Shown piece by piece: positions 1 to 17,252 of a stretch of DNA of 36,130 bases. Below the pieces are notes generated by a model. The model ran no database searches and was not told where the DNA came from. It saw only the letters and a program-made list of their open reading frames with translations. Position 1 is the stretch's first letter. Each line of letters starts with the position of its first letter. The stretch covers positions 1 to 36,130 of the forward strand of contig CAMCSA010000020.1 of NCBI GenBank assembly GCA_945877405.1, read 5' to 3'. The DNA is from an uncultured Erysipelotrichaceae bacterium (GTDB lineage: Bacteria > Bacillota_I > Bacilli_A > Erysipelotrichales > Erysipelotrichaceae). The position numbers and the translations under genes are program-made.

Positions 1-265
1 TTCAGCAGCAAGATCCGGATTCGTAGCAAGCAAAGAATTGTAACCTGGGAGCACCTTTTGGTCACGACAATATGGGCAAGCATCATCCCCTACTTCTCTG
101 TTGCAAATCTGAGCGGAGTATTCTCCTCCGCACTCCGGACAGATCCAAAGATACCTTCTCCGGAGACCCGGAAGAACTTCATCAGCTGACAGTTCGTTGT
201 TAGGCGACCATTCAGCAGCAAGATCCGGATTCGTAGCAAGCAAAGAATTGTAACCTGGGAGCACC
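1..265 (-). repeat. Exact 55-bp direct repeat inside the zinc-ribbon gene
   Basis: Bases 1-55 and 211-265 are identical and 210 bases (70 codons) apart, in the same reading frame. Both encode the VLPGYNSLLATNPDLAAE junction between two zinc-ribbon units. The identity starts at the window edge, so it may extend further left. The other units have diverged strongly, so this points to a recent in-frame duplication or to gene conversion. Confidence 0.9.
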
Positions 266-1965
266 CTCTTATTGTTACACACAGAACAATTGAACAGATT
301 TGGTGTTCCGTTCTCAGTCAAATTAAATGCGTCACAGATTCTGGAAAAAGATTCTTTTCCACAAACCGGGCATCTAAAGTGGACTTTCTTCTGGGAATAC
401 AAAGTGTACTCTTCTGGAACTTCACCTTCATTCTTGTCATAATCCCACCAGTCCCTGACTTCAGGGTACTTCTTAACAAGATTGAGATCACTTGCCATGG
501 CTCTGTATTTTCTACACTTGCCCTGATGACGGATGATTACGTTGCCAGAACTGTCTCTTCTGAGAAGCATACTCACGCTTGTGAAAAGCTCCATGCCACA
601 GTCCGGACATCTAAGATGGGCTCTGAAAGTCGAACCAACCCTAAACTGTTCTGGTTTATATGGATAGTTTGCCTGATAATCCCACCAGTCAGTAATGGAA
701 GGACAAAGTGTCAGCATGTTATCTTCCGGATCACCTTCGGATGAATATCCACACTCTGGGCATGCCACCGGAAGAACACGACCGTCGCGCCGAATGCCAA
801 TAACGCTGTGAATATCACGCTGAGTGCGAATACCACATGCAGGACACTTCAGATTTGCAAGGTAATGGGAACCACGAGTAATGTTTTCAATCGGAATTGT
901 ATTTCCTTCGTCCCACCACTCAACGATTTCAGGACATTCGTCAACCAGCGGTCCACTCTGTTCCATTGCTCTTTCAGCTCCACTTGCAGTGGCACCACAC
1001 TGCTGACACTGAAGAACACTGTACGTTCCGTTTTCATTCTGAACAAACGAGTTATAAGCCCTGCGTTTTAAGAGCTTTCCACAAGACGGGCAATGCGTAT
1101 AGATCTTTTCTGTTGAGAACAGAGACATGCCCTCGGGTCTGTAGGTGTTCTTTTCGTCCCAATACTGTTCAATACCAGGAATGTTACCCAGAATGTTGTT
1201 TTTTCCACCACGTTTGGTCTGATCAGCAAGTTTATGTTGACAATCACTACAAACAGCCAAACGATAACCATCATCTGTTTTCTGAACAGCATCGCAGATT
1301 GCTATCAGTCGTTCTCTGCCACACATTGGACACTTGATATAGGCTTTTTTACCAGAACCAATAGCATAGTATTCAGGTCCATGCTCGTTATTATCAGTCC
1401 AAAACTCTCTGATTTCAGGGAACAGATCGACGAGAGAGTTGGTTTCGTTTCTTTTACCGCATGTCCTACAGTGCATGACGTGACCAACACCATTCTCATC
1501 TTTCTCCCATGTAAAACGAATATTTCTCAACACAGGAGTTCCGCAAATTGGACAATTCGTCCAGACTTTCGTACTACCAGACGCCCCAAAGTCTTCAGGT
1601 CTCTTGCCCTCGTTCAGATCATAGTTCCAGTAACGTTCAATATCCGGAACTGCGTCTGTGAGCTTAATTCTCAGACTGGATTTTGTCGGATGACACTTCT
1701 GGCATACTGGCAAAGAGTAAGTTCCATCACCATTTTTAGTGAGGAAATGATACATGTTACGAAACATCTCTGCTCCACATTCAGGGCAATTGAAGTAATA
1801 CTTCTCTTTTGACCCTGCAGTGATGTTATGCGGATCAGCATTCCCGTTTTTCTCAGCGTTCCACCAGTCCACAATGCCCGGATTAGCATCAAAAGACATG
1901 ACACTACCTTTTTTTGGATTTGCGTTGTTTCTTGCTGATCTTGGTACAATTTTCTTAATTGTCAT
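1..1965 (-). CDS. Zinc-ribbon repeat protein (DUF4379-like), 3' end outside window
   Basis: Reading frame open for 655 codons from an ATG at 1965-1963 to the left edge, with no stop, so the C-terminus is missing. The start has GAGGAG six bases upstream and overlaps the stop of the preceding gene by 11 bases. The protein is a tandem array with a period of about 76-82 residues. Each unit opens with an aromatic pair such as VDWWN or REFWT (tryptophans near residues 35, 113, 189, 269, 351, 428, 507, 586), then CPxCG, then a second CxxC (for example C60/C63 and C88/C91). I count eight full units and the start of a ninth. Unit 6 has H480...C484 in place of the second CxxC. Units 8-9 have the classic NPDLAAEW form of the DUF4379 probable zinc-ribbon family. 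Nucleic-acid binding is inferred; the function is unknown. Many proteins of this family end in a nuclease-like domain, which cannot be checked here. Confidence 0.85.
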   Translation of the reverse strand, partial: MTIKKIVPRSARNNANPKKGSVMSFDANPGIVDWWNAEKNGNADPHNITAGSKEKYYFNCPECGAEMFRNMYHFLTKNGDGTYSLPVCQKCHPTKSSLRIKLTDAVPDIERYWNYDLNEGKRPEDFGASGSTKVWTNCPICGTPVLRNIRFTWEKDENGVGHVMHCRTCGKRNETNSLVDLFPEIREFWTDNNEHGPEYYAIGSGKKAYIKCPMCGRERLIAICDAVQKTDDGYRLAVCSDCQHKLADQTKRGGKNNILGNIPGIEQYWDEKNTYRPEGMSLFSTEKIYTHCPSCGKLLKRRAYNSFVQNENGTYSVLQCQQCGATASGAERAMEQSGPLVDECPEIVEWWDEGNTIPIENITRGSHYLANLKCPACGIRTQRDIHSVIGIRRDGRVLPVACPECGYSSEGDPEDNMLTLCPSITDWWDYQANYPYKPEQFRVGSTFRAHLRCPDCGMELFTSVSMLLRRDSSGNVIIRHQGKCRKYRAMASDLNLVKKYPEVRDWWDYDKNEGEVPEEYTLYSQKKVHFRCPVCGKESFSRICDAFNLTENGTPNLFNCSVCNNKRVLPGYNSLLATNPDLAAEWSPNNELSADEVLPGLRRRYLWICPECGGEYSAQICNREVGDDACPYCRDQKVLPGYNSLLATNPDLAAE

Positions 1966-2704
1966 CAAAAGCTCCTCGCAACATATTTACAGAAGCAAAT
2001 CTGGATACCTTTTCAGGTTCAGGTTCCTGCTCAGATTCCGATGTATCAACAGTCATCTCATCTCTGCTTGTCATTAGCTTTGCCTCAACCACTACCTCTG
2101 ACATAAGAGAATCTACGTACTCGAGAATCCCATTTCTCTGAAGCAGAAGATTAGCGTTTTCAGGGTAAAGATATCCTTCAAGCAGTTCAACCATCTTCTG
2201 TACTGCTTTCTGATCTTCCTTACGCTGTGCAAGAACAGCTTCGAGTCTTTCTTCAGTTTCTTCCAGCCTGTTTTTCAGAGCTGAAGATTCTTCTGTCAGC
2301 TCTCTATTCTGTCTTTCAAGATTACGTGATTTTGTCTCTGCTTCCTTACGCTTTTTGATTGCTTTTACAGCCTTCTCAGAAACACCGTAGTAATAACGAT
2401 CTCTCTCCTGCAGAGCCGAAACCAGCTTCTCTCTGCTACGGTTGTAAGAAAGGAAAGTGTTAACATCAAGTGTATTGAACGTCACCAGATCTTCATTTTC
2501 TTCCTGCTCAAAAGCGTGGTTTTCTTCCAGAAACTGTCTGAACTCCATGTTTCTTCTGATAGACTTATCGCTGACTTCATACCCTTTATCTCTCAGATAT
2601 TTACCAAAATCGGAAGCTCTGTACCGTGTCCCAGGGTTTTCCAGATGATATGCTTTGTAAAGCTCTATCATCTTCTCTGTACTCATTGATCTCTGTCTAG
2701 GCAT
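1955..2704 (-). CDS. Coiled-coil accessory protein of the recombinase operon (TnpC-like position)
   Basis: A 249-residue charged protein. Residues 1-75 are helical and could be a small DNA-binding domain (YRASDFGKYLRDKGYEVSD resembles a winged-helix or HTH segment). Residues about 110-175 form a long Lys/Glu/Arg-rich coiled coil with heptad leucines, and the tail is acidic. Its start overlaps the stop of the 544-aa recombinase by 8 bases (ATGCCTAG), and its stop overlaps the zinc-ribbon start by 11 bases, so translation is probably coupled. Tn554-type elements carry a small coiled-coil TnpC after two tyrosine recombinases, and the position here is equivalent. A similar helper role in recombination is inference. 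I do not recognise a named family with certainty. Confidence 0.7.
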   Translation of the reverse strand: MPRQRSMSTEKMIELYKAYHLENPGTRYRASDFGKYLRDKGYEVSDKSIRRNMEFRQFLEENHAFEQEENEDLVTFNTLDVNTFLSYNRSREKLVSALQERDRYYYGVSEKAVKAIKKRKEAETKSRNLERQNRELTEESSALKNRLEETEERLEAVLAQRKEDQKAVQKMVELLEGYLYPENANLLLQRNGILEYVDSLMSEVVVEAKLMTSRDEMTVDTSESEQEPEPEKVSRFASVNMLRGAFDDN

Positions 2705-4331
2705 CGTCTTCTTCTCCTAATTTTGACAGCAAATACTGCTGATATGAATATTCTTTATTCTGCAGTCTCATAATGGACCCCAGAATTTCTTCCTGATGTC
2801 CCTTTCCGGCACGAACCATATTTACAATCCGCTCCAGATCGCGACATTCCATCTCAATTTCGTTTTTATACATCTCTTTCCTGTCGGCGAATTTCATAGA
2901 TTCGTCCTTGTAGAATCTGCAATTCTGACAGAATCCGATTTCACCCGCAGGACCAACGACATTCTTGCAGTCTGTAAAATCTCCCTGTGCCACCTTTTCC
3001 GAAAGGCACCATCCTTTTTCCAGCTTTGTTCTGACATGCACATTCATGATCTGATGAGGTCCGCTGATAGTATAATTCTGCTTCCCTTTGATCATTTTTT
3101 TGTACTGTCTGTAAGTTCTACATTCAATCAGTGTAGAGATGTTGGAATAGTAATGAGCTGACATTTCAGGGTTTTCGTGCCCTGCCAGCAACATTGCTAC
3201 CATTGGTGTAGAGCCTTCGTAAATCATGTTAATCAACGCAAGATGCCTTGTATCACCAAGGTGAAGGTATTCAATTGTGTTATCGTCAAGATGTGACTGG
3301 TTTTCACTTTCATAGATGATTGTGTAACCATAACGATCTCGAACAATCTGTTCAAAGAAATACCTGAGGCAGGTTCTGAGATTGATATACGAGAAGTATC
3401 TGCTGTTTACCGGAACCATTCTTTCCCATCTTGCATAATGCGTATCTGCAACAAACAGTGTATGTGTATTTGCTTCAGGGAAATCTTTCGTTTTCTTCTG
3501 ATACCAGACGATCTGTTTGGCGAGATCTTCTGGAATTGTGTAGCTGACCAGCTGATAGTCACTGCTGATTTTGTAAGACTTGGTTCTTCCAGATCCCTTG
3601 ATCTTGTTTCTTCTGACAGTCAGTGTATACTTTCCTGCAGTTCTCTTGATGCAATTTCTTGGGATAAGCACAAACTCACAAGGTCTCAATGGCAAAACGC
3701 CAGACAGGTTCCACCACAGCCACACCGGAAAATAGAACAGCTTTTCTTCGATGTTTGTAGTGGTTTTCCAGAAATCCTTGATGATTTCATCGAAAACGAA
3801 GTAGCTTTCCATAACAGCCAAAGATCTCTGACCACGGTCACTGCCTCTTGCGAAATCCTCCGCAATATCGAGCATATTGATATAATCTGCTGTGCGGTTA
3901 AAATCATCGCCCGCAATCAATGAAAGGAATTCAGAAACATAACCAAAAAGGAAGGCATTGTATTCCTGAACCAGCGATCTGAGATTGTGTGGATCTGCAT
4001 AAACGGACCTTTTGACGTAATAAATGAAAGTTCGAACTGTTGTAAGAGACAGCTCGCCCATCTTGCACATGGCGTATGTCTTTAGGAACTCCTTAAACTT
4101 TTCTTCTTCAATTCCTGTCAGATTTTTGAATCTGGCATATTTAGAATTATCCAGTGAAAAATCAAAGTTGTATCCTCTTGTTTCGTCATTCAAGTGCCAG
4201 ACATCATCATCAAAGTAACAGTCATTGATAACATCCTGCTCTTTGTAGGCACGAAACATTCTTTTAGCCTCTTTCACGGTTGTTTCTGTGATTTCAGCTA
4301 TTGCTATTACAGTTCTTACTTTTTCAGGCAT
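2697..4331 (-). CDS. Tyrosine recombinase 3 of trio (544 aa)
   Basis: Site-specific recombinase of the phage-integrase superfamily. Visible catalytic elements are R216 in LPLRPCEF, R362 in GDTRHLAL, H385 in LLAGHENPEM, and a tyrosine nucleophile at Y394 or Y395 in SAHYYSN. The first His of the usual HxxR box is replaced (G359), a variation also seen in active members. After the catalytic domain, C442, C455, C468 and C471 form a likely zinc-binding cluster. Its length exceeds that of a typical integrase (about 350-400 aa) because of this tail and an N-terminal core-binding part. Its start (ATGCCTGA) overlaps the previous stop by 8 bases. It is third in a translationally coupled series, like RIT or Tn554 recombinases. 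Whether all three act together on one site is inference. Confidence 0.85.
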   Translation of the reverse strand: MPEKVRTVIAIAEITETTVKEAKRMFRAYKEQDVINDCYFDDDVWHLNDETRGYNFDFSLDNSKYARFKNLTGIEEEKFKEFLKTYAMCKMGELSLTTVRTFIYYVKRSVYADPHNLRSLVQEYNAFLFGYVSEFLSLIAGDDFNRTADYINMLDIAEDFARGSDRGQRSLAVMESYFVFDEIIKDFWKTTTNIEEKLFYFPVWLWWNLSGVLPLRPCEFVLIPRNCIKRTAGKYTLTVRRNKIKGSGRTKSYKISSDYQLVSYTIPEDLAKQIVWYQKKTKDFPEANTHTLFVADTHYARWERMVPVNSRYFSYINLRTCLRYFFEQIVRDRYGYTIIYESENQSHLDDNTIEYLHLGDTRHLALINMIYEGSTPMVAMLLAGHENPEMSAHYYSNISTLIECRTYRQYKKMIKGKQNYTISGPHQIMNVHVRTKLEKGWCLSEKVAQGDFTDCKNVVGPAGEIGFCQNCRFYKDESMKFADRKEMYKNEIEMECRDLERIVNMVRAGKGHQEEILGSIMRLQNKEYSYQQYLLSKLGEEDDA

Positions 4332-6195
4332 TCTTTGACTCCTGAGCTACAATCAGCTCTAATGCTTTTACTGTTTCAGGTCCATACATTTCCTGCATAA
4401 CACTAAGCATTTCTTCGATACACGGCAGAACAATATCTTCTGCCAGCTCTTTGCTGCGTTCTTTTTCCACAGCAACATCACAGTTTGAAAAACGATCTTT
4501 TAATCGGAAGAACTCACGCGTCATTAGCAACATTGTTGTTTTTGTGCTGAGTTCATATTCACACGATGGACAATTTGCACATTCCGGCTTTGGACACATC
4601 TTGCCCATTGCAGTCATAAGACACAGGCAGGAATCGTTTCTGGCAACAGCCTCCCCGTTTCCGATACGATGAAGGATCTTCAACAGATCTTCCCTTGTAT
4701 TGCTTTGATACATGGCAGTAACCAGTTCTTTTGCCTTCTTCATGTTCTGCTGAGAAACCTGGACACTTCGCTCAACTTCAAGTGGGGACAGTCCCAATTC
4801 CTGAGAAATCTTTGTCTGATTTTCGACGGAAAGTCTATCGTAACCTTCACCACAGATCATTTTCAGCAGCATTGATGGGATGCAGGAAAGCACACCTCTT
4901 TCAAACAGCTCTTTTGCCACGAATTCCGGGCTGAAGCCGTTCATCTTTGCATCCTTCAGATAAACACTTGTTGTTTTAGCGTAATCTCCGTATGAGCCCT
5001 TATGTGACCTTGCAAGTGATGCAAGAACGTACCCTTTCACACGGAACTCATCGTTAATCCCCAGAATGTCATCGGTCAGAAGATAGATCATCTGCATATA
5101 TGCTTTGTTAGCTGATCGGGATCTGAAATTGGATTCCAGGAACAGATCTCCAATTTCTTCTCCCATATACCGTGAAATATCTTCATACCGGGTGATAACA
5201 CGGATCAATGGTTCATCAGGCCTCTTTCCAGAGAGCTGAAAATGTGCTTCAGCTGCTGCAAAGAGTGTTCCAATGTGGTTCTCTATGCTTGTTGGGATGG
5301 TGAGTTTAATCGATCCAACTCCTTTTGTACCCTGCGTTTTGTTTGGGGTAGGCAGGAAAGCATTGAGATAGTAGATAATCGAGTAAACAGTAGCCTTTGC
5401 AGATTCCGCAGAGAACGTACCCTCTTTGATCTGTTCAAGAACCTTCTTTGGCTCATCTGTTAATCGTGGATGTGGAAGCCTTATCATGTCTGTTGTCCTA
5501 AGAGCACATAGGAAGTGCAACGCAAGGAACAGCCATGTATCCACATAGTTTTTAGACTCTGCAGCAAGAGCATACATGTCGTTTTCTTCAATGTATTTCT
5601 CGTTGTACAGATGGTACAGAATATCAAGGTAGTGGTGTGGATCATATGCAGCGCTCTCCTGGCTGTTATCTGCATATTTGTTCATGAAATACACATTCTG
5701 ATATACAGTTCTTGTATGATTGTGCACCCAGTTAACAAAGTCAGCCAGTGCGTTGCCAAACACTCGTGGCAGTTCGTCAAAAGCCTTTTCCATCATGATC
5801 TTTACTTCGCCATCTGTCGATTCAGGCAGTTCACCAGGCATGTAGGCATACATGAAATCTGCTGTATGAAGTGCGATAGGCATGTCAAGATGTACGGTTT
5901 TGATATATCTCTTGAACAGCTCTGTTGTCATTGGAAGAACTCTTGCCATGGCTTCCATTGTTGCCACTGTCTTATCTCTATCGTCCATTCCGTAGTTTTC
6001 GCAGAAATGATCGAGAAGATGTTCCATGTTGCGAACCATTTCTTCTGAGAGCATCAGAGTTCCATCCTGTGGAACAGGAGGATGCCCGAACCAGTTATTA
6101 CTGACGAAGAACTGGGACAGTTCAACCCTGAAATTCGGGTCGTCGATGCCAAACTGCTGTCTCTTTTTCTGAATCAAATCGTTAATGTTAATCAT
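4324..6195 (-). CDS. Tyrosine recombinase-like protein 2 of trio (623 aa, atypical active site)
   Basis: Lies between two clear tyrosine recombinases and overlaps each by 8 bases. Residues 220-240 contain ALRTTDM, with R233 in the position of the first catalytic arginine. A later segment (about 390-413) has ARSHKG and TTSVYL, with possible H398 and Y412, but no standard HxxR box can be aligned by eye. Near residues 523-545 a dense Cys cluster (C523, C525, C534, C539, C542, C545) suggests a zinc finger, as in its neighbour. It corresponds in position and size to TnpB of Tn554 (about 630 aa). It could be catalytically weak or structural within a recombinase complex. Membership of the integrase superfamily rests mainly on context and the R233 motif. 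Confidence 0.65.
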   Translation of the reverse strand: MININDLIQKKRQQFGIDDPNFRVELSQFFVSNNWFGHPPVPQDGTLMLSEEMVRNMEHLLDHFCENYGMDDRDKTVATMEAMARVLPMTTELFKRYIKTVHLDMPIALHTADFMYAYMPGELPESTDGEVKIMMEKAFDELPRVFGNALADFVNWVHNHTRTVYQNVYFMNKYADNSQESAAYDPHHYLDILYHLYNEKYIEENDMYALAAESKNYVDTWLFLALHFLCALRTTDMIRLPHPRLTDEPKKVLEQIKEGTFSAESAKATVYSIIYYLNAFLPTPNKTQGTKGVGSIKLTIPTSIENHIGTLFAAAEAHFQLSGKRPDEPLIRVITRYEDISRYMGEEIGDLFLESNFRSRSANKAYMQMIYLLTDDILGINDEFRVKGYVLASLARSHKGSYGDYAKTTSVYLKDAKMNGFSPEFVAKELFERGVLSCIPSMLLKMICGEGYDRLSVENQTKISQELGLSPLEVERSVQVSQQNMKKAKELVTAMYQSNTREDLLKILHRIGNGEAVARNDSCLCLMTAMGKMCPKPECANCPSCEYELSTKTTMLLMTREFFRLKDRFSNCDVAVEKERSKELAEDIVLPCIEEMLSVMQEMYGPETVKALELIVAQESKNA

Positions 6196-7486
6196 CGTTG
6201 TGTTCCTTTTCCGCTCTCCAAAGCATATAACTAATGCCTTCTCTGTTTACTTCTGCGAGCTGTTCTTCAAGCTCACTCTTGTTCATCAGATACGTCAGTG
6301 CCGACTCAGGGCTTTTATCCCCTCTCCAGTTCATCAGTCCAGCTACCGTTTCACCATACAAAGCCAGTTTCACTGAGTACCAGTGCCTAAGGATATGAGG
6401 AGAAATGCTGTATTGCTGAAGCAGATGACCATAGTTCACAGTTTCAGGATCATCGCTTGCAAGCATTGCCGGAATAGCGTCATTTACCGCATTTTTGAAC
6501 TCCTTAGAGTAAGCATCGTATGTATAAGCCATTCCTGTAGATGTTGTAGTCAAAGCTCCGTAATCTTCTTCATACGGACGACCTTTGATGTATTTCATAT
6601 ACATGTTGTAACATTCCATAAAAGCATCCAGGAATGCAGGGTACACCTTCTGATAGCGTGGTTTCTTAATGCCACCTACGTTCACAAGATCGGATCTGAG
6701 TGGTCTTTCCTGTTTTAAATCAATCGTGACGCCAACAACATCACCATTGACAATGTCAAACATGATTCCAGGTCCAAGTTTTGAATCAACTCTTCGCACA
6801 TTGCATGCCTCTGATGGTCTTAACCCGGCAAAAGCACCAAGAGCAAAAAGCATCAGGATGTTTCTGTGATTCGCCATCACTTCATTCATAATGATCTGAA
6901 AAGCACCTTCCGGAAGATCTCTGAGTATCTTCTTTTCATTCTCGATATAGTGCACCTGGAACACCGGAACACGCTTCATCACATACTTTCTCTTCTTTTG
7001 ATTGAAGACTCTTTCTTCACGGTACAGATCTTGTTCCCTGATCTTACACGAACCATCCTCAATAAGACTAAGGACAAAATCCCTGACCTCGTTGACACAG
7101 GATATAACTGTAGACTTTGAACGGACGGTATTTTCATTATCATCCGGCAGTCTGCACAATCCGTAATCCTTCAGAAAATTCACCACCATGTCAATTTCAA
7201 GATCAACAAGTTTGGTGATGTGATATTTATCGAAAAACACATAATTCAACAGCTTACATGCTGTCTTACATCTCTTTTCGTCCGTCGAGAAGAGATTTCT
7301 TGCGATCATTTTTCTGCCACCCTGAGCGTATTTGTCAAAGTCAGTCCATCTTTGAATCAACCCGTATTCATCTCTCAGGACAATAAAGTGTTTAATCAGT
7401 AACCTGTCACCACCGTAGACAAGCCTGTGTTCATAAACTCCAAATCTTAACGGCATAAACCTCCTGTTTTCCGGTTGAGAGCACAT
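6188..7486 (-). CDS. Tyrosine recombinase 1 of trio (432 aa)
   Basis: Integrase-superfamily recombinase with a complete catalytic set: R223 in AGLRPSEA, H364 and R367 in SPHILRHWY, W387 in LMNWRGD and nucleophile Y399 in ESALTYL. It is first in the five-gene minus-strand operon. Two starts are possible. ATG at 7486 has GGTGAG a few bases upstream. ATG at 7456 (MPLRFG) follows AGGAGG, but with only three bases of spacing. An extended -10 promoter lies about 55 bases upstream of the first. The stop overlaps the next ATG by 8 bases (ATGATTAA). It resembles TnpA of Tn554-type or RIT elements in position. It is probably the main recombinase of a mobile element whose ends are not visible in this window. 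Confidence 0.85.
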   Translation of the reverse strand: MCSQPENRRFMPLRFGVYEHRLVYGGDRLLIKHFIVLRDEYGLIQRWTDFDKYAQGGRKMIARNLFSTDEKRCKTACKLLNYVFFDKYHITKLVDLEIDMVVNFLKDYGLCRLPDDNENTVRSKSTVISCVNEVRDFVLSLIEDGSCKIREQDLYREERVFNQKKRKYVMKRVPVFQVHYIENEKKILRDLPEGAFQIIMNEVMANHRNILMLFALGAFAGLRPSEACNVRRVDSKLGPGIMFDIVNGDVVGVTIDLKQERPLRSDLVNVGGIKKPRYQKVYPAFLDAFMECYNMYMKYIKGRPYEEDYGALTTTSTGMAYTYDAYSKEFKNAVNDAIPAMLASDDPETVNYGHLLQQYSISPHILRHWYSVKLALYGETVAGLMNWRGDKSPESALTYLMNKSELEEQLAEVNREGISYMLWRAEKEHNDD

Positions 7487-7629: not shown

Positions 7630-8262
7630 ATGAAATACTTTTGCAATGTAAACTTGAAAATGGATGCTTTAAAAGAGGAAGCAATCAAACTGAGATACCC
7701 ACGCATTAAGGTGTTAAGAAGCCTGGATGAGCTGAAAGAGGTAATCGAACCCCTTGATTTAGCTGTGTTTGACAACATACTCGAGCTCGATCCTTCAGGA
7801 AACATAGATACAGATACGATTATCGAGAACTACAACTGGTTTGCAGACAAACAGGTTGATGTAATATTTGACCGTTCCCCAAACTGTGACCTGTCAATTC
7901 TGCACACATATATGGACTTAATGAGAGAGAACGGGTTAACATCTGACGAAAAAACAATGTTCAGAATCACTCTCGAAATGCAGATTGGTGCATATATCAA
8001 CATTAAAGATGCAACCGCAAACATGAAAAAATACGCCCAGCTGTCAGCAAGCAAGATTGACGGAAAAGCGTATGGAAGGCCTAAAGGAAGCACAAGAGAT
8101 TCTGAAAGAGCTGTACGTGCAAAGGAAATCATTCTGGCAAACAGTAAAGATTTCAACGGCACTCTATGCGACGATGATTGCGTTGCGATATGCGGCGTTT
8201 CAAGAAATACATTTTACAGATACAAGAAGCAACTGAAAGCAAAACGAGGTGATGAAGGATGA
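7630..8262 (+). CDS. Resolvase-like DNA-binding protein at head of the type I RM operon
   Basis: A 210-aa protein. Its C-terminal half looks like a serine recombinase tail: an E-rich helix (about 105-145), the hallmark GRPKGST at 149-155, then a helix-turn-helix at about 178-200 with VSRNTFYRYKKQL. The N-terminal half has the length of a resolvase domain and ends in VDVIFDRSPN, but it lacks the YxRVSTxxQ motif with the catalytic serine. It is therefore probably not a recombinase but a DNA-binding derivative. The stop overlaps hsdR by 4 bases (ATGA), so it belongs to the restriction operon and may control it; this is inference. No strong Shine-Dalgarno precedes 7630. An in-frame ATG at 7660 is an alternative, or the message may be near-leaderless. 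Confidence 0.65.
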   Translation: MKYFCNVNLKMDALKEEAIKLRYPRIKVLRSLDELKEVIEPLDLAVFDNILELDPSGNIDTDTIIENYNWFADKQVDVIFDRSPNCDLSILHTYMDLMRENGLTSDEKTMFRITLEMQIGAYINIKDATANMKKYAQLSASKIDGKAYGRPKGSTRDSERAVRAKEIILANSKDFNGTLCDDDCVAICGVSRNTFYRYKKQLKAKRGDEG

Positions 8263-11200
8263 TCGCTTTTAATGAAGATACAAGAGTAAAGTTCCCTGCA
8301 ACTGTACAGTTTTTACGTCTTGGATATGAATATCAGCCGCTGCGGGAAGGAACAATAGATTTTGAGACAAAGATATTTGTCAATCGCTTTCAGCCTGCCA
8401 TCAGCAGACTGAACAACAAAGACTACAGTGAATCAGAGATTGTAGCTATTCTTTCCGATATCAACCAAGCAATTAAGAATAATGACCTTGGCAGATCCTT
8501 TTACAACTGGCTGATCAATCCGGAAGATAAGCCGAAGCTCATTGATTTTGAAAACCTGGATAATAACAACTTTGCTGTGGTTGACGAGCTCCCCTTCTCT
8601 CCAAAAGAAGACACAGAGGAAGGCTCTTTCAGACCTGACATCAACATTCTAGTTAACGGGATGCCTTTGGCGTTTCTTGAGGTAAAGAAACCGAACAATG
8701 AAGGCGGTATTCAAAAGGAATTTAACCGAATGATCAATCAGCGACTGGTTAATTCCGATTTCAAGAAATACTTCAACCTGATTCAGATCGTCTCATTCTC
8801 AAACAACATGGAATACGAAGATGATGACAGCTCCGATCTTGCAGATGTAAAAGCAGGATCTTTCTATACAACCCCAAATGACGTTAACACTTCTTTTTCC
8901 TTCTTCAGAGAAGACTCATCCACTTTCCACAAGAACTATCCATACAAAGATGTCTCAAGAGATGATATTGAGCGAATTCTCCTTGAGGAAAATTACGACA
9001 CAAACGAAATAGACAGTCCTGAGTTCCAGACAAATCTGGATCCTATGACACCTTGTAATCGCTTCGTAACATCACTTTATGATCCTGAAAGGTTTATGTA
9101 CTTCCTCCACTACGGTCTGATGTACGTCACAGAAACCAAGAAGATCAAGAATGCCGCAACACAGAAAGTAGAAGAAGTGCCGATCAAGCAGAAGCACATC
9201 ATGAGATATCCACAATTCTTTGCTACAAGAAAGACTATTGAACGTCTTGATAAAGGTGGCAGAGGAGGAATTATCTGGCATACACAGGGATCCGGTAAAA
9301 CTGCTCTCGCAGCATTCTCTAACCGTATCCTCCGTGACTACTATGCCCGTAAAGGGATCAATTTCCGAATGTTCTTCATTGTTGACCGTCTTGATCTGAT
9401 GAGACAAGCCACCGCAGAGTTTACAATGAGGCATTTCAATGTTATCAACTGTGGCAGTAAGCGAGAGCTTGGTATCGAACTCCAAAAGACGCTTACCTCT
9501 CCAAAAGAAGATACAATCGGTGATATTGTTGTAGTTAATATCCAGAGAATCGATCCCGATCAGATTCCAAAGGTCAAAAACGACTATGGCGTGAGTGTGC
9601 AGCGTGTATTCTTCATTGACGAAGCGCATAGAAGTTACGCCAAGAGTACAGGTGAATTTTATAAAAACCTGATGACCTGTGATGATAATGGCGTATATAT
9701 TGCCATGACGGGAACACCATTGCTTAACAAGAAGGTACGCTCCAATCTGCGCTTTGGTGACTATATTCATAAATACTTCTATGACAAGTCAATTGCTGAC
9801 GGATACACATTGCGCATCAAGAAAGAAGATATTGATACTGTTGCCAAAACAGAGATCCGTGCAAATCTCGATATTGAAAAACAGAATCTCGACAGCAAAG
9901 ATGTATATGAATCCGATGCATATCTGAACTATCTTTCTCAGTATATTGAAAAGGACTTCAAATACTTCCGTCTTGCAAATTCAGACAATACCCTGGGCGG
10001 TATGATTGTATGTCGAACAAACAAGCAGGCAGTCATGATCGATAAATGGTTCAAAGAGAACTCCGATCTTAGCGTTGGATTGGTACTTGGAGACAGCCCT
10101 GATCCAAAGCAGCAGGAAATCAATAAAAATCATCAGCTAAACTTCAGAGAATCCAATGTTCCAGACATTCTGATTGTGCAGTATATGCTCACCACAGGCT
10201 ACGATGTAAAACGTCTGAAGAAAATGTATCTGTTGCGTGCGCCAAAAGCTCATTCTTTGTTGCAAACAATCTCCCGTGTAAATCGTCCATACAAGAACAA
10301 AGAAACTGGCAAGGTTTATAAATACGGATATATTGTTGATTTCGTTGATATTGCAGAAGAGTACAACACTTCTCTCCAGGCATATATTAAAGAACTTGAA
10401 GATGATGCACTCGATGGCAGTGATGATGATTATTCTCTGGCAGGACTTGTTATTGATAAGGAAGACATCCAGAAGCGTTATAACACACTCATAGAGCAGT
10501 TTAATAAGATTCCGGTCAGCAAAGACAATGTTGAAGAGTTCTCTTCCGGTCTCACATACCTTTCAAAGGATGCACTGATCCGTATCAGGCACATCCTCAA
10601 CGGAATTAAAGACTGTCGTACAGAGTTCGAGCTGTCAAGGGCTGAAGATTACGCCAAACAGATCGACGCTGAAAAGACAAAGCTGATGACAAGAGCTGTT
10701 CAGTTACGTATAGACTTCATGAACCTGAGTGGTCAGACAATCGATACTCTTGCCATCATGAACAATAAACAGGTCGTAGAAATTATCTATGAGTTTTTAA
10801 AGGTAAAAACCCAGATACTTGATCTATCGGCATTCGACCCATCACAGGCGGGCCAGTTCACTCATGAAGTTGCGGAACTGCAAAAGGAAATCAAAAAGAA
10901 CAAAAACAGAAACGATAACCGCGTGAAGAAGCTTGAAGAACTGCTAAAGGATGTATTCGAACGCCTGTCTATCAGCAACCTTGACGAGCTGACGGAAGAA
11001 TTGAAGAAGGCAGTCGAAGAAGCCAGAGCGATCAATGCAGAAAATGACAGAGTTGCAGCAATCTACGGTGGTCACTACTCTTTCGTAAAGACATTCACTG
11101 AATCTGTCCTCAACTATGAAGTAGACAGATCCAGCGTAGAAGAACTTCTTCTAATTGTCTATGATCATCTGAAGGACAAGATGACAGGGGACACTCTTGT

Positions 11201-11345
11201 TGTACAGGGACGATTAAACTTCGTCAAAGCAACACAAAAAGCTATCACACCAATCCTGTTTAAATCAGGACTTTACGGAAAGGTCAAAGGCTGTCTTGGT
11301 GACGTTCTGACCGATCTTTATACAAATATTCAGTTATTCATGTAG
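8259..11345 (+). CDS. hsdR: Type I restriction endonuclease subunit R (HsdR)
   Basis: Motor and nuclease subunit of a type I restriction-modification complex; it pumps DNA in an ATP-dependent way and cuts far from the recognition site. N-terminal PD-(D/E)xK nuclease: D127 in RPDINILVNG and E141/K143 in FLEVKKPN. Helicase domains follow: Walker A HTQGSGKT near residues 341-348, DEAH at about 454-457, AMTGTP, then motif V/VI segments ending QTISRVNRPY. The C-terminal region is helical and charged, as is usual for assembly with HsdM. Length 1028 aa is normal for the family. It begins 4 bases inside the upstream small gene and is followed after 7 bases by hsdM. All key residues are present, so it looks functional. 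Confidence 0.97.
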   Translation: MIAFNEDTRVKFPATVQFLRLGYEYQPLREGTIDFETKIFVNRFQPAISRLNNKDYSESEIVAILSDINQAIKNNDLGRSFYNWLINPEDKPKLIDFENLDNNNFAVVDELPFSPKEDTEEGSFRPDINILVNGMPLAFLEVKKPNNEGGIQKEFNRMINQRLVNSDFKKYFNLIQIVSFSNNMEYEDDDSSDLADVKAGSFYTTPNDVNTSFSFFREDSSTFHKNYPYKDVSRDDIERILLEENYDTNEIDSPEFQTNLDPMTPCNRFVTSLYDPERFMYFLHYGLMYVTETKKIKNAATQKVEEVPIKQKHIMRYPQFFATRKTIERLDKGGRGGIIWHTQGSGKTALAAFSNRILRDYYARKGINFRMFFIVDRLDLMRQATAEFTMRHFNVINCGSKRELGIELQKTLTSPKEDTIGDIVVVNIQRIDPDQIPKVKNDYGVSVQRVFFIDEAHRSYAKSTGEFYKNLMTCDDNGVYIAMTGTPLLNKKVRSNLRFGDYIHKYFYDKSIADGYTLRIKKEDIDTVAKTEIRANLDIEKQNLDSKDVYESDAYLNYLSQYIEKDFKYFRLANSDNTLGGMIVCRTNKQAVMIDKWFKENSDLSVGLVLGDSPDPKQQEINKNHQLNFRESNVPDILIVQYMLTTGYDVKRLKKMYLLRAPKAHSLLQTISRVNRPYKNKETGKVYKYGYIVDFVDIAEEYNTSLQAYIKELEDDALDGSDDDYSLAGLVIDKEDIQKRYNTLIEQFNKIPVSKDNVEEFSSGLTYLSKDALIRIRHILNGIKDCRTEFELSRAEDYAKQIDAEKTKLMTRAVQLRIDFMNLSGQTIDTLAIMNNKQVVEIIYEFLKVKTQILDLSAFDPSQAGQFTHEVAELQKEIKKNKNRNDNRVKKLEELLKDVFERLSISNLDELTEELKKAVEEARAINAENDRVAAIYGGHYSFVKTFTESVLNYEVDRSSVEELLLIVYDHLKDKMTGDTLVVQGRLNFVKATQKAITPILFKSGLYGKVKGCLGDVLTDLYTNIQLFM

Positions 11346-11352
11346 GAGTTAT

Positions 11353-13020
11353 ATGGCAGATATTTCAAAACTAGAAAATGATATTAAGTTAATCATCGAC
11401 GAGCTCAAAGGGATTTGTCAGACAGCAGGGCTGACAGGCTCAGCAGCAGAGGAAGTTGTTATCACATCCACCTTCTTGTACAAGTTCCTGAACGATAAGT
11501 TCATGTGGAATCTAGCTAATTTCTGTAAAGAGATCGGTATGAAACAGGAAGATGTTCTCAATAACGTCGGCGATTCCATGGATGCATTCTACGACACATA
11601 TGCTTCTGACGTTGCCTTTGCAAGGGAAGATACAATTACCTATCTGGCAACAAAGGTCAATGCAGATCGATTCTATAGTGCATTTGACGACGTTTTAGAA
11701 CATATTTCCAACAACCCAAGAAATGAAGATTTCTCTATCGAAACTGCAGATGGTGAAAAAAAGCCTCTGTTCACTCGAATCACAGAGAATGTAGAATCTT
11801 CCAAGAGAAACAACTTTGCAAAGAGTATCTTTGCATCCATTGCTCGTACAAAATTTGATTTCGGCGAAGCCTTTGAAAACAACTTTGACTTCTATTCAAC
11901 AATTTTTGAGTACCTGATCAAAGACTATAATGTTGCCAGCGGTACCTATGCGGAATATTTCACGCCACAGTCAATTTCCGCAATTATTGCCAAGATTCTT
12001 GTTGAAATGAGTCCTGTAAAAGATACAATCTATGACATTTACGATCCCGCTGCCGGATCAGGATCATTGATTTTACATCTTGCTCACGCACTTGGAAACG
12101 GCAGTTTTGGTAATAAGGCTAGAGTGTACACACAGGATATTTCCCAAAAATCAACACGTTTCCTTCGTCTGAACATGATGCTGAACGGGTTGACAGAATC
12201 TCTCGATAATATTATCGAGGGTGACAGCATGCTTTCCCCTGCACATTACGAGAAAAAAGGAGATCCTAACTCCGGGTTGAAGCACTTCTCATACGTTACA
12301 GCAAATCCCCCATTCAAGATGGACTTCTCCTCCACACGTGACTTGATCGACAGCAAATGGGAGGCTACAAGTCGTTTCTTTGCAGGCATTCCAAAGATTC
12401 CAAATGCAAAAAAGGATTCTATGGCTATCTATCTGCTGTTTATTCAGCACATCCTGTATTCTTTGAAGGATGATGGCAAAGCAGCAATCGTTGTCCCAAC
12501 AGGTTTTATTACCGCTCAGTCTGCTATCGAAAAGAAGATCCGGCAGAAGATCACAGATGAAGGATGGCTCAAAGGCGTTATTTCCATGCCATCTAATATT
12601 TTTGCGAATACCGGCACGAATGTCTCCGTCTTATTTATTGATAAATCAAACACAGATGGAAACGTCATGCTTGTTGATGCTTCCAAGTTAGGCACAAAGG
12701 GAAAATCCGGAAAAAACCAGAGAACTGTATTAAGTCCAAAAGAGATTGCTAAGATTGAAGATACATTCATCAATCGAGAGGTTGTCGACGATTTCTCGGT
12801 TATGGTTTCTACTGATGAAATCAAAGAGAAGAACTATTCTTGGTCTGCTGGTCAATACTTCGATGTAAAAATTGAATATGTAGAACTTACACCAGAGGAA
12901 TTCGAGGCAAAGATGACATCGTATAAAGAAACATTAAATGAATTGTTTGCCGAGGGAAAATCTCTTGAAGATGAAATCAAGAAACAGCTCGAGGAGCTTG
13001 AATATGATAAAAATTCTTAA
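11353..13020 (+). CDS. hsdM: Type I DNA methyltransferase subunit M (HsdM)
   Basis: N6-adenine methyltransferase subunit of the type I complex; with HsdS it modifies host DNA, and with HsdR it forms the restriction enzyme. The N-terminal helical domain (residues 1-150) precedes the catalytic domain. The SAM-binding motif DPAAGSGSL lies at about 231-239 and the catalytic NPPF at about 318-321. The C-terminus is a charged helix (EDEIKKQLEELEYDKNS) typical of contact with HsdS. The ribosome site TAGGAG lies within the 7-base gap after hsdR. The last 17 bases overlap hsdS in another frame. Length 555 aa is typical. It appears intact. Confidence 0.97.
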   Translation: MADISKLENDIKLIIDELKGICQTAGLTGSAAEEVVITSTFLYKFLNDKFMWNLANFCKEIGMKQEDVLNNVGDSMDAFYDTYASDVAFAREDTITYLATKVNADRFYSAFDDVLEHISNNPRNEDFSIETADGEKKPLFTRITENVESSKRNNFAKSIFASIARTKFDFGEAFENNFDFYSTIFEYLIKDYNVASGTYAEYFTPQSISAIIAKILVEMSPVKDTIYDIYDPAAGSGSLILHLAHALGNGSFGNKARVYTQDISQKSTRFLRLNMMLNGLTESLDNIIEGDSMLSPAHYEKKGDPNSGLKHFSYVTANPPFKMDFSSTRDLIDSKWEATSRFFAGIPKIPNAKKDSMAIYLLFIQHILYSLKDDGKAAIVVPTGFITAQSAIEKKIRQKITDEGWLKGVISMPSNIFANTGTNVSVLFIDKSNTDGNVMLVDASKLGTKGKSGKNQRTVLSPKEIAKIEDTFINREVVDDFSVMVSTDEIKEKNYSWSAGQYFDVKIEYVELTPEEFEAKMTSYKETLNELFAEGKSLEDEIKKQLEELEYDKNS

Positions 13021-14224
13021 ACTGAGTGATGTTTGTAGAGATATCATAGATTGTCCTCATGAGTCCCCTGTTTGGCTGACTGAAGGTTATGCAAGAGTTA
13101 TAAGAAACTTTAACCTTATAGATGGCCAAATCAGTGATACTGAACCATATTATGTTGATGAGAATACTTACAATAAGCGAACTCGCAGAGCAATTCCAGA
13201 GCCTGGAGATATCATCTTTTCAAGAGAGGCACCAATCGGTAATTGTGCTATCGTTCCAGAAGGATTTAAGTGTTGTCTTGGTCAAAGATTGGTTCTTTTA
13301 AAAGTAGATCATAGCAAAGTATCTTCCAATTATTTACTAACGGTTTTAATGTCGAATTATGTCAAGTATCAGATCGAACAAGTCTCAAAGCGTGGATCGA
13401 TCGTTAGTAATTTCAATATAGGTGATTTAAGCAATCTTAAAATACCGGTTCTAACAAACCAATCAGACATTGCACAATTTGCTAATGATATTTCTTCTAA
13501 AATCACTAATAACCGCTGTATCAATAATAAATTGGAGTCCCTTGCCAAAACCATCTATGACTACTGGTTCCTTCAATTTGAATTTCCCAACGAAGAAGGA
13601 AAACCATATAAGTCATCTGGTGGAAAGATGGTGTGGAATGATGAACTGAAGAGAGAAATTCCTGAAGGGTGGGAATTGACAACACTAGGAGAAATGTTTC
13701 ACATCACAATGGGTTCCTCTCCAAAAGGCGACTCATTGAATGAAGTAAAATGTGGTATAGAGTTTTATCAGGGATCCACAGATTTCGGGAATATATATCC
13801 CAATGAGCGTGTCTATACAACATCACCAATCAGGAAGGCTACATCCCAAGATGTATTGTTAAGTGTTAGAGCGCCTGTAGGCGACATGAATATTGCCATG
13901 AATGATTGCTGTATAGGGCGTGGCTTAGCAGCAATTCATTCTGAATCAACACTATTGACTTGGAATACGTTGAAATCTTTACATTCTTATTTTGATGTAT
14001 ACAATAACAACGGGACTACGTTTGGAGCACTTACAGCCGATTCATTAAAAGGACTGATTACTCTTAATATTCCGCCAAGATTGATTCAGGAGTATGAAAA
14101 ACAAGTGAGTGGTTTTGAAAAAATCATTCGCAATAAAGAGCTTGAAAGCCGTAGTCTTTCTTCACTCCGTGATTTCCTTCTTCCAATGCTCATGAACGGG
14201 CAGGTAACATTCAAGGATAACTAA
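13004..14224 (+). CDS. hsdS: Type I specificity subunit S (HsdS)
   Basis: Determines the bipartite DNA target of the type I system. 406 aa with two target-recognition domains: the first spans about residues 1-150 (including FSREAPIGNCAIVPEG and CCLGQRLVLL), then a conserved helical spacer around 165-200 (NNKLESLAKTIYDYWFLQFE), the second domain from about 235 (REIPEGWELTTLGEMF), and a second helical spacer at the C-terminus (ESRSLSSLRDFLLPMLMNGQ). ATG at 13004 is chosen over the longer frame from 12938 because GAGGAG lies 8 bases upstream and the extra residues would be an out-of-frame copy of the HsdM tail. It overlaps hsdM by 17 bases. No second hsdS or inverted partner is present, so no phase-variation shuffle is visible here. 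Confidence 0.95.
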   Translation: MIKILKLSDVCRDIIDCPHESPVWLTEGYARVIRNFNLIDGQISDTEPYYVDENTYNKRTRRAIPEPGDIIFSREAPIGNCAIVPEGFKCCLGQRLVLLKVDHSKVSSNYLLTVLMSNYVKYQIEQVSKRGSIVSNFNIGDLSNLKIPVLTNQSDIAQFANDISSKITNNRCINNKLESLAKTIYDYWFLQFEFPNEEGKPYKSSGGKMVWNDELKREIPEGWELTTLGEMFHITMGSSPKGDSLNEVKCGIEFYQGSTDFGNIYPNERVYTTSPIRKATSQDVLLSVRAPVGDMNIAMNDCCIGRGLAAIHSESTLLTWNTLKSLHSYFDVYNNNGTTFGALTADSLKGLITLNIPPRLIQEYEKQVSGFEKIIRNKELESRSLSSLRDFLLPMLMNGQVTFKDN

Positions 14225-14249
14225 GACGCTACAAACAGCGTCTTTTTTA
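14223..14249 (+). terminator. Intrinsic terminator of the hsd operon
   Basis: AAGACGCT, loop ACAAAC, AGCGTCTT, followed by a T-run. An eight-base-pair stem starts at the hsdS stop codon. Confidence 0.9.
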
Positions 14250-14400
14250 GTTGTCATCGTTACGTGCATTATCATATTTCGGATCTTGTCTACTCTAAAA
14301 CTAGAATTTGCAATCTACAAATAACGCTCTTGTCCACTGTAAAATTGGTATATCCATTGTAGAATTGGAAATAATCTGTATTGCTTTGCACGTTCCTCTC
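14250..14400. other. Non-coding stretch downstream of hsdS
   Basis: No credible gene. It contains the first copy (14360-14372) of a 13-base direct repeat, TAGAATTGGAAAT, whose second copy is at 14683-14695. A plus-strand frame around 14345-14400 reads VELEIICIALHVPLK, which faintly resembles the end of an XRE helix-turn-helix domain, but no domain start can be found. It may be a decayed fragment. Confidence 0.4.
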
Positions 14401-14737
14401 AAGCTGTTTTTCAGCCTTGAAAACACGTTTGAGACGGTTTTCTTTCATTTTAAAAGAACACTTGAAAGGCTGTTTTATACTATTGCCCGAAGTAATGCCC
14501 GTTTCCCTATGCATAAGAAAAAAGACTTCTCTAGGATCTAGGTATCCGAGAAGTCTCCAATTCAGGTCCGATTTTTTCGTTGAAACCCCGCTTTATACAC
14601 CATCTATCTTTGGAATCCGTTCTATGCTTCTGAACGGTTCTTGTCCGGTGTATAGGCAGAAATTTCCATACCTTATTCAAGCTAGAATTGGAAATCCGTT
14701 CCTCAATCATCCCTCCAGGTTTGGAGGAGATATTGAG
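14401..14737. other. Dense array of stem-loops, possible structured RNA or DNA site
   Basis: Six hairpins fill most of this stretch. (a) 14401-14418, CTG/CAG plus AAG/CTT with a bulge. (b) 14419-14442, GAAAAC/GTTTTC with inner CGT/ACG. (c) 14523-14556, AGACTTCTC/GAGAAGTCT with inner GGAT/ATCC. (d) 14594-14654, TATACACC/GGTGTATA enclosing CCGTTC/GAACGG. (e) 14662-14695, ATTTCCA/TGGAAAT enclosing ATTC/GAAT. (f) 14702-14737, CTCAAT/ATTGAG enclosing CCTCCA/TGGAGG. A 12-base direct repeat AATGCCCGTTTC brackets c-f (14494-14505 and 14763-14774). The short frames across it do not look like proteins. It has no signature I recognise from tmRNA, RNase P, 6S or SRP RNA. Confidence 0.6.
14518..14556 (-). 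terminator. Minus-strand intrinsic terminator
   Basis: Read on the minus strand, a perfect nine-base-pair stem (AGACTTCTC/GAGAAGTCT) with an inner GGAT/ATCC helix is followed by TTTTTT. It implies minus-strand transcription across 14560-14800, either from nrdD read-through or from a separate small RNA. Confidence 0.65.
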
Positions 14738-14796: not shown

Positions 14797-15033
14797 GTTT
14801 TAACGAGGATAACGGGCATGTTTTTTCGATTTTCCAATTTTGAATTTTCGGGTTTTAACGGGAATAACGGGCACGTTTTTACAAAAAAGCCCGAATTAGC
14901 CTTTCGGGTTTTAACGGCTATTTCGGGCATAAAATTTTATTTTTTTAAAAAATTTTTTTCGGGTTTTAACGGGAACGGGACGGCTATTTCGGGCATAAAA
15001 TTTTATTTTTTTAAAAAATTTTTTTCGGGTTTT
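14797..15033. repeat. CGGGTTTTAACGG repeat array with a 54-bp direct duplication
   Basis: Related units follow each other between hsdS and nrdD: TTTTAACGAGGATAACGGGCATG from about 14797, CGGGTTTTAACGGGAATAACGGGCAC from about 14854, CGGGTTTTAACGG from 14905, again from 14960, and CGGGTTTTGGCGG from 15026. A 54-base segment (14914-14967) recurs exactly at 14980-15033, 66 bases later; it holds CGGCTATTTCGGGCAT and a long A/T tract. On the minus strand the core reads CCGTTAAAACCCG. Copy spacing is irregular, so this is not a CRISPR. The role is unknown. Confidence 0.8.
14883..14912. terminator. Bidirectional terminator-like hairpin between hsdS and nrdD
   Basis: CCCGAA, loop TTAGCCT, TTCGGG, flanked by AAAAAAG on the left and TTTT on the right, so it can act on either strand. 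It lies between two convergent transcription units and inside the repeat array. Confidence 0.6.
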
Positions 15034-15050: not shown

Positions 15051-17252
15051 TCAAAGATGCAATACTCTTTCCTTGATTTCCTGTGTTCTTCCCTGATTCC
15101 AGAACTGCGTGCCAATATATCCACATGTTCTTCTTGCTACATTCATTGTATTCTGGTCTGTATTACCACAATTCGGGCACTTCCAGATGAGCTTGTGATT
15201 GTTGTCTTCAACAATATCTATTTCACCATTGTAACCACACTTCTGGCAATAGTCAGACTTTGTATTCAGTTCTGCATACATGATCGTCTTATAGATATGC
15301 TTCATGATTGCAAGTACTGCCTGAATGTTGTTCTGCATGTTCGGTACTTCCACATAAGAGATGGCTCCACCAGGAGAAAGCTTCTGGAAGCGTGCTTCCT
15401 TTGTCAGCTTATCAAATGCATTGATCTCTTCGGATACGTGGATATGATAGCTGTTTGTGATGTAGTTACGGTCCGTAACACCCTTGATGATACCAAATCT
15501 TTCCTGCAGGCACTTGGAGAACTTGTATGTTGTGGATTCCATTGGTGTGCCATAGACAGAGAAGTCAATGTTTGTTTCCATCTTCCACTTTGTACATGCA
15601 TCATTCAGATGCTGCATGACTGCAAGACCGAACTTTTCACCATCTGCTGATGTATGAGACAGACCTGTCATATAGCGTACACATTCAGCCAGACCACCAT
15701 ATCCAAGGGAGATTGTACTATATCCGTTATACAGCAGTTTATCAATTGTTTCGCCCTTCTTGAGTCTTGCAATTGCACCATACTGCCACAGAATCGGAGC
15801 AGTATCGGATAATGTACCCTTCAGCTTGTTATGGCGGATCATCAGTGCTCTATAGCACATATCCAATCTTTCATCAAAGATCTTCCAGAACAGATCCATA
15901 TCCTTGCCAGAGGAGCATGCGATATCAACAAGATTGATCGTAACAACACCCTGGTTAAATCTGCCATAGTACTTATGCTTACCATCTTCATGATTCAGAG
16001 CATGTTCATTGTTATCCCATCCGTTTTCTGTGAATCTATCAGGAGTAAGGAAGGAACGGCAGCCCATACATGGATATACATCACCTTTGAGTTCCTTCAT
16101 GATCTTTGCAGAGATATAGTCCGGAACCATTCTCTTGGCTGTGCATTCTGCAGCAAGCTTTGTCAGATAATAGTATTTGGAATCTTCATGAACATTGTCT
16201 TCATCCAGAGCATAGATGAGCTTCGGGAAGGCAGGTGTGATATAAACACCCTTCTCATTTTTAACACCAACCATTCTCTGCTTAAGCATTTCTTCAATGA
16301 TCAGAGCCAGATCATCTCTTGTTCTGCCTTCTTCCACTTCATCCAGATACATGAATACGGTAACAAATGGTGCCTGTCCGTTTGTTGTCATCAGAGTGAT
16401 GATCTGATACTGGATTGTCTGCACACCAGTCATGATTTCACGTCTGACTCTTTCTTCCGCAATACGATCGATCTTTTCCTGGCTGACATCCACTCCAGCA
16501 GCTTCCATTTCTTCTGCTACAGCCTTTCTGTACTTCTGACGGCTGATATCTACAAATGGTGCAAGATGGGAAAGCGTGATTGTCTGACCGCCATACTGAT
16601 TGGAAGCAACCTGTGCAATGATCTGTGTTGCGATATTGCATGCAGTTGCGAAACTGTGTGGCTTATCGATCTTTGTACCGGAAATGACTGTTCCATTCTG
16701 CAACATGTCTTCCAGATTGACCAGACAGCAGTTATACATCGGCTGTGCAAAGTAGTCAGCATCATGGAAGTGAATGATGCCCTTTTCATGTGCATCCCAG
16801 ATATCTGCAGGCAACAGGAATCTTCTTGTGATATCCTTAGAAACTTCGCCAGCCATGTAGTCACGCTGTGTGGAGTTTACAGTCGGATTCTTATTGGAGT
16901 TTTCCTGCTTTGCTTCTTCATTTGTATTACCAAGCAGTGAAAGGATTTTCTTATCTGTTGTGTTGGCCTTACGGATAAGAGCTCTTTCATATCGATATGT
17001 AATATAGTTGTGAGCGACAGTATATGCGCCCGCAGCCATCAGTTGATTTTCAACAAGGTCCTGAATTTCCTCAACGGAAATAGAGCGCTGAATTGCATTG
17101 CACTGCGCAATAACCTGATTGGCGATTTCGGTGATCTCATCATCTGTGATCTGTTTTGTGTTGCGTGTGGCATTGTTTGCCTTTCTGATCGCAACGATGA
17201 TTTTTTCGGCGTCGAAGGATACTTCTTCACCACTTCTTTTAATGACATTCAT
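15051..17252 (-). CDS. nrdD: Anaerobic (class III) ribonucleoside-triphosphate reductase NrdD
   Basis: Makes deoxyribonucleotides from NTPs under anaerobic conditions with a glycyl radical. The N-terminal ATP-cone (residues about 1-95, starting MNVIKRSGEEVSFDAEKI) gives allosteric control. The large catalytic barrel follows. Near the C-terminus are two CxxC pairs (CQKCG and CPNCG) for a zinc site, and the radical motif RRTCGYIG with the radical-bearing glycine at about 711. 733 aa, full length. It needs the radical-SAM activase NrdG, which is usually the next gene, but nothing encoding it follows here; the repeat array comes instead. A promoter and a long palindrome precede the gene. The stop codon lies in a small GCATC/GATGC hairpin. 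Confidence 0.97.
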   Translation of the reverse strand: MNVIKRSGEEVSFDAEKIIVAIRKANNATRNTKQITDDEITEIANQVIAQCNAIQRSISVEEIQDLVENQLMAAGAYTVAHNYITYRYERALIRKANTTDKKILSLLGNTNEEAKQENSNKNPTVNSTQRDYMAGEVSKDITRRFLLPADIWDAHEKGIIHFHDADYFAQPMYNCCLVNLEDMLQNGTVISGTKIDKPHSFATACNIATQIIAQVASNQYGGQTITLSHLAPFVDISRQKYRKAVAEEMEAAGVDVSQEKIDRIAEERVRREIMTGVQTIQYQIITLMTTNGQAPFVTVFMYLDEVEEGRTRDDLALIIEEMLKQRMVGVKNEKGVYITPAFPKLIYALDEDNVHEDSKYYYLTKLAAECTAKRMVPDYISAKIMKELKGDVYPCMGCRSFLTPDRFTENGWDNNEHALNHEDGKHKYYGRFNQGVVTINLVDIACSSGKDMDLFWKIFDERLDMCYRALMIRHNKLKGTLSDTAPILWQYGAIARLKKGETIDKLLYNGYSTISLGYGGLAECVRYMTGLSHTSADGEKFGLAVMQHLNDACTKWKMETNIDFSVYGTPMESTTYKFSKCLQERFGIIKGVTDRNYITNSYHIHVSEEINAFDKLTKEARFQKLSPGGAISYVEVPNMQNNIQAVLAIMKHIYKTIMYAELNTKSDYCQKCGYNGEIDIVEDNNHKLIWKCPNCGNTDQNTMNVARRTCGYIGTQFWNQGRTQEIKERVLHL

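Follow-up and report, generated by a model that had tools for sequence, protein, structure and literature searches.

A five-gene tyrosine-recombinase island with a DUF4379 zinc-ribbon array as its putative target selector

A five-gene operon beside nrdD

The window, that is, the whole stretch of 36,130 nucleotides analysed here, comes from an uncultured Erysipelotrichaceae bacterium. It opens with five minus-strand open reading frames (positions 1-7486) that overlap successively in the order A-B-C-D-E (Table 1). The A/B, B/C and C/D overlaps measure 8, 8 and 8 bases, and D/E overlap by 11 bases if gene E starts at ATG 1965, so the open reading frame coordinates bear out the values in an earlier note on this sequence. 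The last overlap becomes 14 bases if gene E starts at TTG 1968. The frames encode 432 (A), 623 (B), 544 (C), 249 (D) and 656 (E) amino acids, the last being open at the window edge. Gene E is cut by the assembly, because base 1 of the window is the first base of its contig (C20), and this edge truncates it inside near-identical units. Upstream of gene A lie gene F and a type I restriction-modification operon. Past hsdS, an AT-rich repeat region leads to the 3' end of nrdD (15051).

Table 1. Features of the analysed stretch of DNA.
Feature	Position	Strand	Remarks
Gene A, tyrosine recombinase	6188..7486	-	R-K-H-R-H-Y complete in 12/12 copies examined
Gene B, recombinase-fold protein without canonical catalytic set	4324..6195	-	Tfp/GinC-like by position and fold
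Gene C, large tyrosine recombinase	2697..4331	-	R-K-D-R-H-Y kept in 15/15
Gene D, small coiled-coil protein with basic N-terminus (MPRQR)	1955..2704	-	GinD/Srap/TnpC counterpart by position
Gene E, DUF4379 treble-clef zinc-ribbon array of at least 8 units	1..1968	-	3' end lost at contig edge; proposed target selector
Gene F, small divergent protein with C-terminal HTH	7630..8262	+	Same-place homolog in L010 only
hsdR, cargo (type I restriction-modification operon)	8259-11345	+	
hsdM, cargo (type I restriction-modification operon)	11353-13020	+	
hsdS, cargo (type I restriction-modification operon)	12938-14224	+	
Element end beside nrdD	14800..15025		Iterated motifs and A/T motif; borders by eye
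nrdD (anaerobic ribonucleotide reductase), proposed target gene	15051..17252	-	3' end faces element

The earlier note had seen three genes of tyrosine-recombinase type. For A and C this holds by sequence, and for B by fold only. Gene A matches XerC, XerD and XerA, and it misses the cut-off of the GmtY family (Gamma-mobile-trio) with 22 bits where 340 are required. In gene C the first histidine of the catalytic set is replaced. Gene B has no match in family profile searches, and the canonical catalytic set of tyrosine recombinases is absent from it. Its AlphaFold model aligns with XerH (Z 9.7, rmsd 14.8 over 227 residues) and with Cre (Z about 8, rmsd 3.6, about 150 residues). Foldseek by itself found nothing significant for this model; Xer and Cre headed the list of a second aligner. 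The product of gene B is judged to be inactive solely from the absent canonical set. As read from the sequences, the operon pattern is a predicted active recombinase, a recombinase-like protein, a second predicted active recombinase and a small HTH/coiled-coil protein.

Gene E encodes a tandem array of zinc ribbons. Pfam recognizes 7 DUF4379 stretches in the protein (E 1.9e-46), and a unit profile built for this analysis finds 8 units in the window, matching the earlier count of at least eight. In the predicted structure each unit is compact, with good local confidence, while the placement of units relative to one another is unpredicted (pTM 0.26). Solved DUF4379 relatives are mitoribosomal proteins of trypanosomatids, and matches of the array in PHROGs include phage endonucleases; relatives of both kinds would fit nucleic-acid binding by E. 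Control searches found DUF4379 domains to be common outside such elements. The window's own genome, searched for the other end of the element, which lies off the contig, holds no further DUF4379 match. Among three papers in the literature searched that mention DUF4379, none concerns such elements as far as titles and abstracts tell.

Distribution and relation to known islands

Genome collections were searched with gene B or gene C. The five genes in order, as far as contigs reach, were found at 15 distinct loci: the window, L010 (Holdemanella biformis), L027, L008, L009 (a Gemmiger MAG), L011, L012, L013, L007, L129, L130, L131, L132, L133 and L134. The order that the earlier note proposed to look for is therefore not a product of chance, because it recurs at all of these loci. 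Gene A is absent or cut in L008, L011 and L133. All five-gene loci are from Bacillota except L012, which has two array ORFs and lies on a contig binned as Sphingobacterium. Because about 250 genomes of the Sphingobacterium family contain no relative of the element, this contig is likely a contaminant from a Firmicute, and Sphingobacterium was rejected as a genuine host. The module is rare, occurring in 3 of 272 genomes of the window's family in the first search, and no gene C relative was found among viral contigs and phages.

A maximum-likelihood tree of gene C places the 15 array-bearing elements in a single clade (support 100/99), and gene E directly follows gene D in every one of them. Distant gene C relatives possess genes A to D but lack the array next to them, as seen in L015, L050, L135, L137 and L169; another, L136, is cut where D and E would be. 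The presence of the array throughout the clade, and its absence beside the recombinases of distant relatives, indicates that it is a core part of the element rather than passing cargo. The zinc-ribbon gene thus belongs with the recombinases, as had been suggested from the window, and neither trios lacking it nor separated parts occur among these 15 members.

One of the distant relatives, L135, represents an element without an adjacent array at nrdD/nrdG. A DUF4379 array is found elsewhere in this element (12570-14462), where it is interrupted by a stretch that is free of zinc units and resembles a nuclease domain.

Several known systems resemble the operon in part. Tn554 has tnpA, tnpB and tnpC as its only core genes, and RIT elements consist of three catalytic tyrosine recombinases with no further core gene. 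Tandem tyrosine-recombinase genes with a small accessory gene are shared with Tn554, and tandem recombinase genes with RIT elements. However, there are five core genes here, gene B lacks the canonical set, and the extra genes D and E are present in all clade members. The first four genes had been likened to Tn554 tnpABC or a RIT set, a comparison that gives way to a layout of the GInt and SE kind (PMC5385486, PMC10214605).

GInts and these elements alike have an operon in which four genes encode three recombinase-type proteins and one small accessory protein, a likeness that rests on layout (PMC5385486, PMC10121019). Also shared are large and variable cargo that is often defensive, insertion at gene ends, imperfect direct repeats (in one delimitable copy, L013) and site-specific placement, here at the 3' end of nrdD in four hosts. 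Unlike GInts, the elements have the DUF4379 array as a fifth core gene, their cargo is placed upstream of gene A, not behind ginD, and the non-canonical recombinase is the second gene rather than ginC. The SE operon has the order intA (active), tfp (not active), intB (active) and srap (small) (PMC10214605). This is the same order of catalytic types as in the window, again a likeness of layout; in contrast, SEs are reported from Gammaproteobacteria (PMC10214605) and do not have the zinc-ribbon array. A mobile genomic island of the GInt/SE kind is the best explanation of the locus by its gene layout.

Insertion sites, ends and cargo

Most element ends were set by motif recognition, empty sites being available for a single case (see below). 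At 17-45 nt past the stop codons of target genes lies the sequence AAAAA(A)TTTTT, with iterated motifs behind it. This end motif is found beside nrdD in four hosts (the window, L027, L008 and the nrdD contig of the L009 genome), and beside genes for HU (L131), a chromosomal xer (L132) and an nlpC/P60 gene (L010). In the window, the AAAAAAATTTTTT motif is located 28 nt past the nrdD stop codon, and the iterons have the consensus ATGCCCG...CCGTTAAAACCCG. Operon orientation relative to this end varies: the target-facing end with its A/T motif adjoins the A side in the window, L027 and L009 but the E side in L008, L010, L131 and L132. In genome G1013 the element splits HU from rqcP. The neighbour of L130 on the A side is likewise rqcP, and the L130 contig ends before HU would appear. 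L129 has a 19-bp repeat common to both ends and faces the 3' end of a cytidylate-kinase-like gene, at a greater distance than separates other elements from their targets. Element-specific iterons occupy 14800-15025 in the window, 9480-9680 in L027, 14060-14210 in L131 and 17120-17280 in L010.

Genes adjacent to targets are in some cases duplicated beside the elements. There are two copies of nrdG at L135 (4888-5421 and 18503-19123) and two of rqcP at L130 (5094-5330 and 5567-5806), as if the islands carry or leave a second copy.

Occupied and empty sites, whose comparison the earlier note had advised, could be set side by side in the case of an integrative and conjugative element (ICE). L013 resides inside a Tn1549-like ICE, between traG and Maff2, and comparison with empty ICEs places its ends near 6460 and 14098, with borders drawn by eye. 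The 7.6 kb so delimited hold genes A to E and nothing else, and they are flanked by an imperfect direct repeat around GAAAGG, also defined by eye against the empty ICEs. L013 and L014 were considered as independent insertions at the same site and rejected as such. Because their identity runs on into the ICE flank, they represent either one insertion with later recombination or an assembly chimera. An empty counterpart of the window element was not found within its own genus, where synteny past nrdD is too variable. Three sequences filed as 'Bacteriophage sp.' (L095, L096 and L100) resemble fragments of ICEs and have Tn1549-type conjugation genes (Maff2, VirD4).

Cargo lies beyond gene A in the window, L009 and L131. 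It comprises type I restriction-modification and Druantia-like genes in L009 and a restriction-methylation system in L131. The Gemmiger element cargo (L091, G651:C4:1-16000) encodes a Druantia DruE1-like helicase, a DruC-like protein and type I restriction genes. Gene F of the window, which diverges from gene A and overlaps hsdR by 4 bases, bears a weak likeness to invertase-type serine recombinases. Its homolog in L010 (6002-6646) has the same position beside gene A; as this is the one other element with the gene next to A, gene F was rejected as a sixth core gene.

Array order and the proposed role of gene E

Each E protein was cut into its units, and the score of a pair in real order was set against its unit-shuffled score to give a ratio. 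At gene C identities of 42-56%, this ratio is 1.81-2.05 for six pairs of nrdD elements and 2.2 for the HU pair, versus 0.99-1.66 (mean 1.24) for 14 pairs with different targets. A Mann-Whitney test that includes the ICE pair gives p = 0.0015, for pairs that are not independent and with a test picked after the pattern was seen. Units are colinear between nrdD elements and between two elements at the HU/rqcP junction, mostly with 40-69% identity on the diagonal. Unit matrices accordingly have a clean diagonal in the nrdD pairs shown and in the HU pair. There is none for L130/L132, L131/L132 and L129/L132, the last unit excepted; this C-terminal unit is 46-50% identical in L131/L132 and L129/L132. 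The L130/L132 pair, whose targets differ, has an intermediate ratio of 1.66. In the ICE pair (L013/L133) a common region without clear unit order yields a ratio of 1.06. This pair is either an exception or untestable, because its units are too alike. Array order thus co-varies with insertion target when the nrdD and HU groups are compared with other targets, with the ICE pair being uninformative and the diagonal seen in these two target groups only.

One insertion site was predicted, and the prediction noted beforehand, from array similarity alone: the Gemmiger element L009 should be at nrdD. In its genome, an edge of contig C11 carries nrdD, with AAAAATTTTTTC 27 nt past the stop codon and AAAAAAATGAACTTTATG after it, which correspond to the end motif and iterons. 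Because the contigs are unjoined, this is strong but not complete proof.

Since unit order changes when the landing site changes, E probably aims the island at a gene's end. Target choice, one of several roles that had been considered for the array, is the reading best supported by the relation of array order to target and by the L009 prediction. TnsD places insertions immediately beyond the coding end of its target gene. TnsD of Tn7 and TnsF of Tn6022/Tsy are zinc-containing selectors that bind a conserved gene and direct insertion, and in Tsy the selector is paired with a tyrosine recombinase (PMC10293859). By analogy to these proteins, E is probably a modular target selector, a zinc-ribbon protein that would direct insertion beside the end of a conserved gene. 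Unlike them, it consists of nothing but treble-clef units in tandem, is related to them neither by sequence nor by architecture, and stands beside a three-recombinase system.

In the proposed mechanism, the tyrosine recombinases A and C, with B as partner and D as accessory protein, would cut and join the element ends, as GInt and SE work suggests. The variable units of E would bind the conserved 3' coding end of one chromosomal gene, and its conserved last unit would bring proteins A-D to this target. The island would then integrate some 17-45 bp beyond the stop codon, so that the target gene stays intact. New targets could arise through duplication, loss or replacement of E units. Here E may sharpen, or take over, a specificity that lies with the recombinases in other islands. 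We infer in this scheme that E binds DNA, contacts the recombinases and selects the site directly. Genes for defence, resistance and virulence are disseminated by GInt and SE islands. A separate, modular and re-orderable aiming protein, if true, would explain how related islands move between target genes. Such a protein would be to tyrosine recombinases what TnsD is to Tn7, and DUF4379, a widespread uncharacterized domain, would gain a testable function.

There is perhaps a chance of one in a few that recombinases A-C alone pick the site by their att core and that E is an accessory factor, for example, a scaffold on the element ends or the synapse, whose array diverges along with the elements. 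GInts without such an array integrate site-specifically and need ginABCD alone (PMC5385486), and gene E is co-encoded with, and overlaps, the recombinase operon. Target groups also coincide with recombinase clades; because same-target elements are near relatives in the gene C tree, the effects of the recombinases and of E are not fully separated. E does keep step with the recombinases within the nrdD group, but its order is lost at equal or smaller recombinase distance once the target changes. L129 and L132, with a gene C path of 0.89 versus 1.34 for the window and L009, have unrelated unit orders and different neighbour genes. The end iterons also argue against a scaffold on the element ends. 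The iteron of L129 is that of L027 and L009, but the L129 array is different. The window iteron differs from that of L027 and L009, yet the window array is colinear with theirs. Recognition of end iterons by E was therefore rejected. Because iterons do not follow E, its partner is argued to be the host target rather than the element ends.

A target-selecting array might work like TAL-effector repeats, with each zinc unit reading a few bases and recombination between units creating new addresses. Such unit-by-unit reading by DUF4379 arrays is a speculative extension that we consider rather unlikely. Many unit columns are specific to a unit yet kept between orthologs, and the candidate base-reading columns are too numerous to name a code. 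If true, unit-by-unit reading would make these arrays a naturally occurring DNA-binding scaffold of a new, programmable kind, linked to insertion machinery of tyrosine recombinases, and an array that follows a code could be used for directing the insertion of large DNA.

It is improbable that E is conserved cargo, such as an anti-phage factor or a nucleic-acid-binding protein with a protective or regulatory role, that happens to be co-transcribed with the recombinases. Transcription in GInts does continue past ginD into cargo (PMC5385486), defence genes are found on these islands, and DUF4379 is widespread outside them. However, E is retained in 15/15 clade members while other cargo varies, is the sole such gene in the minimal element, and has an array order that follows the insertion site. 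PADLOC, too, has no match for the array, so that the separate defence function raised in the earlier note finds no support. Least probable is a protein that binds RNA or regulates transcription, such as one that acts on transcripts of the adjacent target gene: solved DUF4379 proteins do belong to mitoribosomes, but no regulatory site was identified and such a role needs no tie to a recombinase operon.

Further recombinase genes are sometimes found next to the islands. Homologous genes of the Xer type adjoin the elements at L129 (5629-6723), L132 (3633-4703) and L011 (12421-13407), in differing orientations.
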